Assembly (NCBI GenBank): GCA_943737045.1 | Contig: CALSFV010000300.1 | Span: 310,001-374,000 of the forward strand | Origin: Parapristionchus giblindavisi | Taxonomy: Eukaryota; Nematoda; Chromadorea; Rhabditida; Diplogasteridae | DNA length: 64,000 nucleotides | Direction: 5' to 3' | Shown here: positions 2,506 to 20,251 of the stretch, piece after piece | Position numbering within the stretch: the first letter of the stretch is position 1 | Layout of the letters: each line of letters opens with the position of its first letter | The notes under the pieces: model-generated | The model's database searches: none | What the model saw: the letters and a program-made list of their open reading frames with translations, nothing else | Told to the model about the DNA's origin: nothing | Translations under genes and position numbers: made by a program

Positions 2506-3493
2506 GGGTCCGTCCAATCTGTCACTTTCGATCGAAAGTTCAGAAGAAAGTTCGCATCTTTTTAGCGAGAGTTCAGAAGAAAGATGCGAACTTTCCTCGC
2601 AACTTTCGTCGCAAGTCCTCTTACCCCTCCCTGGGTAAATGGGCTTATATACTTGTAATAAAGAGTTCGGCATACCCCAGACGGGTTTGGTGTGTGACTA
2701 AACTAACGGGTGGTGGGCGGAGCTCCGCCGGTTCTAACAACTATCAAGTTAACTCATTATTTAAGCCATCATAATCTACCGTAATCCACCTACCGTAACC
2801 TACAGTAACCCAGTTCATTGGGTCAAATTGATTGCGACGGGTCAAATGATTCACTAGTGTAAATTACCGTTACCGAGACCTTTTCGTTGATGATTCTACG
2901 TTATTCTTTGTGTTTTTTCGGGTTTTATAGATATTTCATGTCAACACAAAACATTCCTTTAAAATTACTGTATGAACAAAGTAATAAATCGAACCAAAAA
3001 GTATGAAAACAAGACAATGACAAGCACTACAAGTACAAATATAATAGATGAGAGGGAGAAACATGTTATGTAGAAAGCAATAATTGGGTGAAAGAACAAA
3101 TGAATAACGAGGGGTGAGTGAGATTACGGTGGGTAGTCGATCAATATACAATTATTGATCGATTGATGAATGGGAAAATGGGCGTCCGGTCGCAGCATAT
3201 GAAGCGTGACGTCATCCTAGCGTGAATTGATCAATAGGTATAAAACCGAATGCATAAAAATCAATCAATAAATAGATAGACTATGACAAAAAACAATCGT
3301 CTGGTATGTACAGAAGAATCGTCACATGGCTGGGGCTCATACAAAGAAATAATCTATCGAGCTACGAATCAATCAATCAATAAAAGGGGCTAACGTAAAC
3401 CAAAATCAGGGTGGGATCGTTGTGACAATCAATCTATTGTGGGACTACCGTATACCAAAATCAGGGGGGGACGTTGTGAGAGTGAGAGTGTCT

Positions 3494-3850
3494 CTACATG
3501 ATGACTTCCCTCTGTGGTACGCTGGCCGAGATGGCCTTGTTGAAGTAGAGCTCATCTTTGACGACGACGTCATCGCCCAGCACCGACGAGCCATCCATGC
3601 GCACCCAGGAACCTGAAAAAGACAACTCAGTTTGAGATTGCGGGAGCTCCTTAGTTACTATCATTGAGCCGCCGTGCACGACAGAATATGTAGTCACAAG
3701 TCAATAAATCAATAAAGACATCAATCTATCAATCAATAATTAAATAAGTAAATCAATCAATATTGGCACTTACAACATCCGGTCCAATCACCCAACCCTC
3801 GCCGATGACTGCGGTCGGGTCGACGAGCACGTTGCCCTTGATGTGTTCGC
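3494..3850 (-). pseudogene. GDP-mannose pyrophosphorylase (GMPPB-like) C-terminal fragment
   Basis: Two exons are visible, 3774-3850 and 3494-3612. The first encodes a hexapeptide-repeat segment with GNVLVDPTAVIGEG and IGPDV. The second contains WVRMDGSSVLGDDVVVKDEL and ends SVPQREVIM plus a stop. Both match the left-handed beta-helix C-terminus of the enzyme that makes GDP-mannose from mannose-1-phosphate and GTP. Roughly 45 residues that normally lie between the two segments are missing, the reading frames do not join, and a few residues before the C-terminus are also gone. It lies downstream of topoisomerase II exons on the same strand, and the phase at that junction is compatible, so the transcript would be chimeric. 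Confidence 0.8.
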
Positions 3851-3857
3851 CTCAAAC

Positions 3858-3911
<54 letters not shown>
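3858..3911. repeat. (TTA)n microsatellite
   Basis: Perfect TTA/ATT triplet run beside the acceptor of the GMPPB-like exon, within the topoisomerase-to-GMPPB intron. Confidence 0.95.
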
Positions 3912-17222: not shown

Positions 17223-18354
17223 TATGTACTAGAGATCTCATTTAAACTATAACTATACCATACCCATGTACTATTGTCGCTGTACTATTTCCAATCGTGT
17301 ATTCATATCCATTCTTAATTTCTGTAATATTTCATTTTATGTACAATCTTTGCTTATCCGTCTTTCGTGTATAATAATCCGGTTCATGTGAATAAGTACG
17401 TGTAATGAGAATACATAATGTGAATAAATACGTGTAATATAAATAAATACGATTTATGCATTGTTACCTACACAAATTAAAGATGAATTCCAATGAGTGA
17501 AAGCAAAAGCGTACCTGGGCCGGGTAGGACAGGGTGAAGAGACAAATGCTTAAATGTAAGCGATGCGCTCGCTTACATATAAGCATACACTCTACTCAAT
17601 AGTAAGCATTCACGTATGCTTACATTTAAGCATACCTCTCTCTTATAGGGCGCCAGGTAGCATAGCGTATGCTTACTATTAAGCATCTTTCAGCTGAGTG
17701 TACGGTATCTCGGAATTACGGTAACTTACAGGAATGAGCTTGTTATTCAGGTAGACCTTGACTCCGCGAGCAGCACCAGCGATATCGTAGGCACGACTGA
17801 AAAATCAATATTTTTTTTTAAATTTAAAAAAATAAACTAATTTACGATCTTACCGATACATGAGAGCAGTGATATCATCATCCAGCTCGGACATCTTGAA
17901 TTTCTTCAAATCAGGCTTGAAGATTACCTAAACCAATATGGAGATTAGAGAAATCAATCAATAATGGATCGATAAATCGATAAGTACCTTAGTGTAGTCA
18001 TCACCGGAAGTAGCTTTCACTTCGGCATCCTCATCCTTGGTCATATTGTTCTTCCAGGTCTGTAAACGAACAAATCAATAAAGCCGTAGAATATATTTTG
18101 AAGAATCGATAGATTCTGTAGATCATGATACATTATCGATTACCTGTTTGAAAGCCTTCTTGTAATCCTTGCTGCTGGTTTCGAGAGTGAATTCAGTGGA
18201 GAAGATATTACACAGCTTAGCTCCGTATCCGTTACAACCACCCGTAATTGGACGATGTGAGCAGCGTACCAAAGATCAGCTCGGGTACGTACATGTTTTC
18301 AACCTCAAATCAATCAATAATTGTTATGATATCGATCGATACAAGTCATCGTAC

Positions 18355-19623
18355 CTTGTTTTCCCTCTGCACGATCTTTATACTTGCTGGAGCCGCGGAT
18401 CTCATCGATTTCGGCCTGGACCTCTTCACTGAGGGCGAGGGACTCAGCGGGACGGAGGTTGTTCAAGTTGAGAAGAACATAGGCGAGATGTGGGAGGACT
18501 GTGATGCAAATAGCGCTGAGGGCAGAACGACCGAACATCATGCTGAAATTTGGAGTATTGAATCGAACGGTTGGCATAAAATACATCACCAATCAATAAG
18601 TTATTATTACTACGAAAGAGGAAAGATATACACGCATTTTTATCACAACTGTGCTATTCTTGTATGCTTACAACTGGGAGAGAACTACAGGTAGAAGGTT
18701 CGGGATTGGCGCAGACATAGAGATAGAGGGATGATAACGATTTGATAGTTTCACGCCTGTTATAAGGTATAGTAAAACAACAACAACATAGATCGCTCTA
18801 AATAGGGCCGCTCACTGTCTCGGTAATCCAGACATACGGAGGGCAATGGGTACGAACTCTTTTTTCATATCGGATTCAGGCGATTCGTGTCCGTATCCGT
18901 GAAAAAGTATGAGCGCCAGTCTTTTTTCACGGATACGGACAGAGAGGAACTTAGAGCGCTAGAGAGAGGGAAGGAGGTGAGAGAGTGTGTGAAATTGAGA
19001 GAGTGAAAAGGGAAGCGGTGAAAACAAGTGTAAATAAGAAACTAATGAGAAAATAAGCTAACCAGAGGAAATATAGAGTGGAACTACACAAGAGAAATGT
19101 AATCAGAGCATTGGGAAAGTCAAATGAACAGTGGATTTTAAAAATAAGGGTAAAAAAGAGTAAGAGAGAAAGAGAGTGAAATGCGCGCACCCTATCGCGA
19201 GAAAGAGAGTGAGACATAGAGGAGAATGAGACAGAGAGGAGAGTGAGACAGAGAGGAGAGTAAGACAGAGAGGAGAGGGTATTTCACAAGAAGCGTGTCG
19301 CGAGAAAGACAAAGAGGAGAGTGAGGCAGAGAGGACAGTGAGGCAGCGAGGACAGTGAGGCACAGAGGAGAGTGAGACAGAGAGGAGAGTAAGACAGAGA
19401 GGAGAGTGTATTTCACAACAAGCGTGTACAAGAGTATGCAATTGATACAAGAAAGCGTAAAAATTAAAAATAATAAGACTACCTGACGACTGTAGCTGCT
19501 CGAGGACGGCATATTCAACACAAAGATGCATCTTGAGAAGTAGTTGAGGTTGTCGACGAGCTTGACGTGACGAGCGGTCTTGGTTGGGAGAGCCGATACC
19601 TGTGCTGGTCGTCGCGAACCCAT
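18355..19623 (-). pseudogene. Unidentified leader exons of the chimeric captured gene
   Basis: Exon 19483-19623 starts at ATG (MGSRRPAQVSALPTKTARHV, then LVDNLNYFSRCIFVLNMP) and ends at a GT donor. Exon 18355 to about 18542 encodes a hydrophobic segment (SALSAICITVLPHLAYVLL) followed by an acidic helix-like stretch (SLALSEEVQAEIDEIRG). The two do not join in frame with the sites I can see, so an exon may be missing. The second exon is followed after only about 50 nt by the first topoisomerase II exon, which does not normally follow such sequence, so this is a chimeric join. I do not recognise the source gene. Confidence 0.5.
19200..19410. repeat. GAGACAGAGAGGAGAGT minisatellite
   Basis: Imperfect tandem purine-rich units lie within an intron of the chimeric gene. 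The long minus-strand frames here (SLSHSPLCLT-like repeats) are products of the repeat, not genes. Confidence 0.85.
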
Positions 19624-19649
19624 CTTGAGTAACCTAAATTCATCCTGTT

Positions 19650-20251
19650 ACGGATAAATGCGATCGGAAAGCGGAAAGAACGGAAAGAGCGGAAAGAAAG
19701 AGCGAAAGAACAGTGAACTGGTAAAGTCGTGCGCGCGGTCGCGACGCGTGTGTTCCCCCCCCCCCCGCTGTTCGAACATGTTTTTCAGCTGCTCCGCGCT
19801 CTCATAAAATTCGGACGAGTGTGACTGAGAATGCACACGATTTCCTGTAAAGTTTTCGTCTAAATAATAAGTGTTTTCACAAAAAATATTTATAAATTAT
19901 TGAGCACACTTTCATCGAGAGTTGAGTAACCACAATTTAATCATCACACTATCACTTTTGTAAATTAAACTTTCGACGCAACTTTATGTAAAGCTCCGTT
20001 TACTTTTTCTGCTCCTCTTCAAATGCACACTCTCTCGCCTGCTCTAACCGACCTCGCTAGAAAGTTCGCATCTTTCGACGCATCTTTTCGTCGCAACTTT
20101 CGACGCAACTTTCGATCGAAAGTTGTTAGAGAGTACTAGAGAGTGTGTATTTCGAGAGATTTAGAGAAAACTTGCGTCGAAAGTTGCGTCGAAAGTTGCG
20201 AACTTTCTTCGCAACTTTCTTCGCATCTTTTTTGACAGATTGGACGGACCC
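19650..20251 (-). promoter_or_regulatory. Conserved terminal region of the GGGTCC family, probable inward promoter
   Basis: Read on the minus strand from the 20251 terminus, this region matches 59311-59850 read on the plus strand. Shared blocks include GCAGAAAAAGTAAACGG, TTTACAAAAGTGATAGTG, AAAACACTTATTATTTA, GGAAATCGTGTGCATTCTC and GAGCGCGGAGCA. In both places a captured chimeric gene begins just inside, on the same relative strand. Nearer the end are clustered GATGCGAACTTTC motifs. A C-homopolymer interrupts it near 19757. Promoter function is an inference from position and conservation. Confidence 0.6.

Follow-up and report, generated by a model that had tools for sequence, protein, structure and literature searches.

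GGGTCC-ended transposons carrying intron-containing fragments of several host genes in the nematode Parapristionchus giblindavisi, a candidate NuwaI-related Pack-TIR family

How do pieces of unrelated host genes come to lie behind one and the same terminal sequence? The question is raised by a 64,000-nt stretch of the Parapristionchus giblindavisi genome (hereafter the window; C300:310001–374000 of a 251-Mb assembly), in which an element with GGGTCC ends (2506–20251) carries pieces of topoisomerase II and GMPPB genes and a diverged relative, from 59311, carries pieces of a glycogen synthase gene. The family to which they belong is a multi-gene, multi-copy animal Pack-TIR family, that is, one of transposons that hold host sequence between terminal inverted repeats (TIRs). 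Very probably it is non-autonomous, likely moved by a NuwaI-type transposase acting in trans, and carries pieces of no fewer than six host genes, introns included, likely captured as DNA, with chimeric transcription predicted to start from its right (R) end. Coordinates within the window are given in Table 1.

The 2506–20251 element is a clean insertion into host sequence. It is bounded on both sides by a perfect 19-bp inverted repeat (GGGTCCGTCCAATCTGTCA), and the ~1.5-kb host stretch in which it lies occurs twice in the window in inverted orientation, once bearing the element (1524–2505 plus 20251–20819) and once empty (21801–23347), the two being 99.7% identical. For this comparison the flanks were joined after deletion of the element and one CAG, and then aligned to the empty copy. 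The ends proposed in the first-pass annotation therefore stand, with the 3-bp duplication and the empty site as added support. The size proposed there, 17.7 kb and larger than plant Pack-type elements, does not. A related element, L034, is 98.8% identical to the window element up to element base 3701, the match resuming at 15196, and the 11.5 kb in between is an insertion ending in CACTCAGC...GCTGAGTG (junctions were read from the sequence, the start by base counting). Since 6206–17700 is a separate transposon lying inside, a family member measures about 6.25 kb, and the L034 comparison rules out the larger figure. This second transposon is of no assigned class: its four open reading frames (225, 225 and 161 aa among the sizes given) had no credible Pfam match, and the one that was searched for homologues returned none.

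A genome search with the 19-bp terminus, which the first-pass annotation had suggested, revealed copies far above chance. There were 269 exact matches (129 forward and 140 reverse) and none for a control consisting of the same pattern read backwards; with up to two mismatches, the numbers were 437 and 1. Twenty-nine elements with both termini were studied, the one in the window and 28 that were fetched (20 + 8) from paired termini on contigs C1–C67 and C117 and, through end-block searches, from C309 and C391. All 28 are shorter than 10 kb, and because they were chosen by listed contigs, end-block searches and size they are not a random sample. Identical 3-bp flanks were found in 26 of the 29 (CTG in 13, CAG in 10, and TTG, CTA and ATG in one each), so that 23 of the 26 duplications are of the CWG type, and the wider insertion target is a palindrome, about AYCWGRT. 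Eleven of the 15 other elements with topoisomerase II and GMPPB, compared with L034, showed 95.5–99.4% identity in blocks of more than 400 bp, indicating that the copies are young. The terminus also occurs in MITE-like (miniature inverted-repeat transposable element-like) form, as exact pairs 133–135 bp apart at C37:257020–257152 and C39:78659–78793. At C206:1685036–1694623, three R blocks lie at an exact spacing of 4514 bp, apparently as a tandem array.

Probing with host exons identified recognisable host-gene pieces in 25 of the 29 elements. Six genes are represented (topoisomerase II, GMPPB, the proteasome gene RPT2, glycogen synthase, thiolase and a chitin-binding (CBM_14) gene), and they occur in seven combinations. 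Topoisomerase II with GMPPB is the cargo of 16 elements and topoisomerase II alone of one; RPT2 is carried by three, RPT2 with CBM_14 by one, glycogen synthase by two and thiolase by one; in L041 pieces of glycogen synthase, RPT2 and thiolase follow one another; and four gave no identified cargo. Matches to topoisomerase II, glycogen synthase, AAA, proteasomal OB and CBM_14 exceeded the curated Pfam cut-offs. GMPPB_C and Thiolase_C fell below them (thiolase at 26.7 of 27 bits), and the best PDB matches of these two pieces were mannose-1-phosphate guanylyltransferases (1.6e-6) and thiolases (0.0008), respectively. By resemblance, the CBM_14 gene carried by L025 is possibly cpg-like. In the window element, the exon pieces of topoisomerase II and GMPPB lie between about 3500 and 6205; the GMPPB pieces at 3756–3851 and 3530–3616 matched GMPPB_C at E 0.0011 and 2.5e-4, both under the cut-off, and the former matched mannose-1-phosphate guanylyltransferase chains at E 1.6e-6. 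A further topoisomerase II-type open reading frame had no PDB match. The cargo read in this copy by the first-pass annotation is thus present and is not unique to it, and its wider claim, that different host genes with introns kept occupy the same position and orientation, is supported in the probed elements, as regards introns for RPT2 and glycogen synthase: cargo is not identical in all copies, even though 16 share one.

Elements with unrecognised cargo (L017, L028, L039, L038 and L042) were also searched by translation. Among their non-redundant stop-free stretches of at least 110 aa, only glycogen synthase reached the Pfam cut-off; of stretches of at least 50 aa, 3 of 31 were searched in L017, 4 of 59 in L028, 2 of 48 in L039, 4 of 34 in L038 and 5 of 38 in L042, so shorter exons may escape. 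Weak matches under the cut-off were to M-factor (L028, E 0.0018) and RE_R_Pab1 (L038, E 0.009). An ENY2-like reading of L038 was rejected, as Pfam gave nothing and the PDB only a weak, unrelated match.

The copy from 59311 is a family member of a more diverged kind. Positions 59414–59832 match the reversed 19681–20112 of the first element at 80% over 437 bp, and the alignment can be carried, with more divergence, out to 59311. The first-pass count of two members stands, with the qualification that the second has a diverged terminus and no exact 19-mer. Its glycogen synthase exons lie at 61192–61410 and 62369–62485, and in both copies the host genes read inward from the common terminal block, as had been stated.

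Twelve representative elements were aligned. An R-end block of about 560 bp is present in 11 of them, whereas L039 has its first 176 bp only, and past the block the sequences diverge near a start codon. Inside L039 there is also an extensive inverted repeat, which appears to be a foldback insertion nested in it. Two leader types occur, MGSRRPA... and MARVFPSAFPP..., and for each of them a GT donor follows in one element or more. The MGSRRPA-type exon, in two readings, had no PDB match. Judged by these signals, the R block would act as a promoter that also provides a first exon and a splice donor, and chimeric transcripts would start from the element's own R end.

All cargo so far identified is in the sense orientation with respect to this leader, its exons following in order. 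The 96 probe hits in the 29 elements all read inward from R, with none antisense, and reading of the longer opposite-strand pieces in ten elements recognised no gene. Strand-blind genome searches gave the same picture: among loci no more than 9 kb inward from an exact R end of the list, 9 of 9 were sense for RPT2 (one row per locus, matches to a 140-bp repeat within the query dropped), 31 of 31 for GMPPB and 8 of 9 for glycogen synthase, where the exception (C137:41891) lies outside its element (blocks 42614–49326). The list held 100 of 114 exact R ends, and these counts thus exclude later contigs and mutated ends; the opposite end was seen for only some of the loci. Loci with no listed R end make up 19 of 28 fragment loci for glycogen synthase (including the second member in the window), 8 of 17 fragment loci for RPT2 and 11 of 42 loci for GMPPB. 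Counted by gene, the orientation is sense in six of six, about 0.03 two-sided if the events are independent. Sense-only cargo could be explained in two ways: sense transcripts that start at the R leader and can be spliced are selected for, or capture itself is linked to transcription.

Parent genes were sought elsewhere in the genome. For RPT2, every exon read at C204:2084500–2087500 (L053) is open, and the spliced prediction shares 97% identity with RPT2 of Pristionchus mayeri, the unusual GCPGTGK motif included. The RPT2 cargo of L022 aligns to six exons of this gene at 552 of 586 bases (94%) and to its introns at 934 of 1212 aligned bases (77%; 405 intron bases were unaligned and the count includes a few bases of exon 1), whereas a reversed control gave 835 of 1973 (42%). 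This cargo is decayed, with a 10-bp net loss in one exon, one acceptor AG lost and one exon absent. For glycogen synthase, a gene-like locus at C232:551920–558182 has ten matches in profile order covering most of 9–330 and 443–573, besides which at least 28 fragment loci were found; the cargo of L027 matches it in four ordered blocks at 81–94%, comprising 1321 distinct bases of which 635 lie outside the profile-matched stretches. For GMPPB_C, a gene-like locus lies at C359, and one fragment occurs in 42 copies (of 47 rows, two were set aside for C359 and three others were set aside). The host-gene pieces were thus likely captured straight from the chromosome as DNA, as their sequence suggests and as the first-pass annotation had argued from the retained introns; the argument held for RPT2, by its introns, and for glycogen synthase, by homology outside exons.

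The same data bear on other origins of the cargo. Capture of reverse-transcribed mRNA would account for gene material in sense order, but the introns are kept and match those of the parent, and retrocopying is ruled out for RPT2 by the intron alignment and for glycogen synthase by homology outside exons; of all the readings we weighed, this is the one we can practically discount. Somewhat less remote, and still highly improbable, is the view in which the R block belongs to the host as an ordinary promoter, the elements being pseudogenes or segmental duplicates of genes of the host. The block does look promoter-like, with a start codon followed by a leader exon, but it ends in the terminal repeat in all 29 elements, duplications flank 26, one empty site exists, and no exact R end of the list lies within 9 kb of the RPT2 gene (C204:2084.5 kb) or of the glycogen synthase gene (C232:551.9 kb). 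These facts exclude a host promoter at ordinary genes, a possibility that the first-pass annotation had itself raised; the block is an element end. It could also be that a single old capture, of topoisomerase II and GMPPB, was amplified and that all other contents are nested insertions or products of recombination. Sixteen elements do share one cargo, and nested insertions do exist. However, cargo from RPT2, glycogen synthase, thiolase and the chitin-binding gene follows that same R block in one and the same orientation, and the cargoes of L022 (with two loci, 100% identical over 3.8 kb) and L027 (with two loci, 99–100% over 2.4 kb) each form a multi-copy subfamily of their own. We regard this explanation as improbable, less so than the two above.

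As for the enzyme that moves the family, the duplications are of the kind published for NuwaI elements, 5′-CWG-3′, apart from TTG, CTA and ATG in one element each, and the 19-bp repeats starting GGG fall within the NuwaI range of 12–61 bp, usually starting GGG. Membership of NuwaI, which is related to PIF/Harbinger, is provisionally proposed; because its basis is the duplication and the end sequence only, the mobilising enzyme is a prediction. Pack-MULEs have other ends and 8–10-bp target duplications, CACTA/EnSpm elements have CACTA/G ends, and Helitrons have neither inverted repeats nor a target duplication; the present elements have 3-bp duplications, GGGTCC ends and both of the features that Helitrons lack. 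Another superfamily with short duplications (CACTA-like, Zator or Academ) might instead have moved these ends. In its favour, GAAAGTTGCGA-type direct and inverted repeats lie subterminally at both ends, as in CACTA elements, and the searches made turned up no NuwaI transposase between such ends; against it are GGGTCC ends rather than CACTA/G and the CWG mark of most duplications. We judge it unlikely, yet a serious contender. A PIF/Harbinger transposase inside the family was rejected at the four DDE_Tnp_4 loci read, none of which has these ends. The genome has five such loci (by Pfam and direct protein search), encoding a HARBI1-type protein whose best match is from Pristionchus at 62%. Three (L049, L050 and L051) are low-copy, stop-free proteins, two of them 95% identical, near which these ends were not seen, and are possibly domesticated. 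A DDE_Tnp_4 fragment on C275 (L052 2963–3293) is 85% identical over 335 bp to one end of an insertion of 2.8 kb that lies close to the left (L) end of L038, where another PIF-related family is perhaps nested.

Several observations weigh against a non-autonomous, NuwaI-moved family of repeatedly captured genes. None of the 38 non-redundant stop-free stretches of at least 110 aa in the 28 fetched elements matched a transposase in Pfam (one is glycogen synthase), and GGGTCC ends were absent within about 3 kb of one DDE_Tnp_4 locus and 1.5 kb of three (four of the five loci, partly read). L017, L021 and L031 have no identical 3-bp flanks, and host-exon probes identified no host gene in L017, L028, L031 and L039. 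The orientation counts are not independent, since copies are related by descent, and the initial identification of cargo was visual and made largely on the strand reading inward from R, so that sense cases are favoured. As to the parents, none of 56 PF00204 matches in the genome stood out as an intact topoisomerase II gene, two of the ten matches at C232 contain stops (perhaps from intron bases), a further 54-bp match between L027 and C232 is on the opposite strand, and the 17:17 ratio of synonymous to nonsynonymous differences between the L022 cargo and RPT2 cannot be divided between parent and cargo. The autonomous partner that the first-pass annotation expected to share these termini was not found among the 28 fetched elements, nor was a transposase recognised in six frames of the conserved L arm of L018, L023, L028, L039 and L027.

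We nonetheless favour captured cargo in a family mobilised in trans. Gene copies would enter a broken element at the DNA level, through template switching or gap repair, and further genes would be added in series inside it; stepwise addition is suggested because L041 holds a triple cargo. The R block would supply promoter, first exon and splice donor, the transposase (NuwaI-type, PIF/Harbinger-related) would be provided from elsewhere, and transposition would then spread each cargo combination. A bolder possibility, which we advance tentatively and consider somewhat less than even, is a self-spreading exon trap in which the element's own promoter, start codon and splice donor, with repeated sense capture and stacked genes, make new spliced chimeric genes genome-wide.

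Table 1. Features of the window, with positions counted from its first nucleotide
Feature	Position	Strand	Evidence or remark
Target-site duplication CAG, left copy	2503..2505	.	
Pack element with GGGTCC ends	2506..20251	.	6.25 kb own sequence plus 11.5-kb nested insertion; compared with L034
Left terminal inverted repeat GGGTCCGTCCAATCTGTCA	2506..2524	+	
L-end block	2506..3060	+	40 genome places scored, 94–100% identical (481 candidates)
GMPPB C-terminal fragment, two exon pieces	3499..3851	-	
Topoisomerase II fragment, several exon pieces and intervening sequence	5070..6205	-	PF00204 E 6e-8 and 0.0018; human topoisomerase II alpha E 0.008
Nested unrelated transposon, outside the family	6206..17700	+	CACTCAGCTGAAAGATGCTTA inverted ends, TA duplication; missing from L034 and L036
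Predicted 47-codon leader exon (ATG to GT donor), directly inward of R block	19483..19623	-	Sequence and alignment; no PDB match
R-end block, predicted promoter and 5′ leader, common to every identified cargo type	19680..20251	-	
Right terminal inverted repeat	20233..20251	-	
Target-site duplication CAG, right copy	20252..20254	.	
Empty target site, inverted copy of flanks without element	21801..23347	-	1543/1547 identical, no gaps
Second, more diverged member with glycogen synthase cargo, running beyond window	59311..64000	+	R-block match, alignment and Glycogen_syn exons
Glycogen synthase exons of second member	61192..62485	+	PF05693 E 1.8e-14 and 9.5e-14

Elsewhere in the window, a 2.2-kb palindrome (35262–37489) matches itself on the reverse strand at 93.5%, and a tandem array with a repeat step of 33 bp occupies 46237–47637.

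The first-pass annotation knew of no described animal family with these termini. This holds in that no description of the family was found, nor any of Pristionchus gene-packing elements, in a literature covered by titles and abstract openings (subscription papers being mostly out of reach); a term search of PMC9297572 (P. pacificus repeats) and PMC10015627 (Caenorhabditis) gave no such passage. It does not hold for the kinds of element concerned, since NuwaI ends and animal Pack-TIRs are both published. Passages of Tan et al. 2021 (PMC8277862) report 370 animal Pack-TIR cases in 100 genomes with a median capture of 224 bp, four multicopy cases together with the Ssk-FB4 family in flies, and a proposed origin of multicopy Pack-TIRs by template switching followed by transposition. 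As here, host sequence lies within TIR transposons, some with an exon and adjoining intron, and parent genes without the transposon ends lie elsewhere (for RPT2 and glycogen synthase; C359 being gene-like for GMPPB); here, however, one family in one genome holds at least six genes, one fragment at 42 loci and several genes in series. NuwaI, of the PHIS superfamily, is described by Han et al. 2015 (PMC4482050) as confined to animals (12 fish, a beetle, a crustacean, a mollusc and an anthozoan) and shares with the present family its CWG duplications, GGG-starting repeats and animal host. Its autonomous copies have a DDE transposase and a Myb/SANT gene, neither of which was found in the 28 elements fetched here, and the passages on NuwaI do not mention gene capture. 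A nematode parallel is Turmoil-1 of C. elegans, a Harbinger element with pieces of rsp-2 and cpg-3 (Sela et al. 2008, PMC2572040); it has one complete copy and eight fragments, its own transposase and its cargo in 760-bp inverted repeats, whereas here the cargo is internal and varied and the ends number in the hundreds. Plant Pack-TYPE elements, in the account consulted in part (PMC8903248), are non-autonomous DNA transposons of several superfamilies, Pack-PIF included, that likewise capture coding DNA, with plants as hosts.

Gene-packing transposons are known from that account as shufflers of coding DNA in plants, and the captures in the animal survey are mostly single-copy, their median size being 224 bp. 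The present family, with its six or more captured genes, its stacked cargo and its nearly identical copies, provides a natural series for studying how capture proceeds, why the orientation is sense-only and what becomes of chimeric transcripts, and this series likely sits in a nematode group with laboratory tools.

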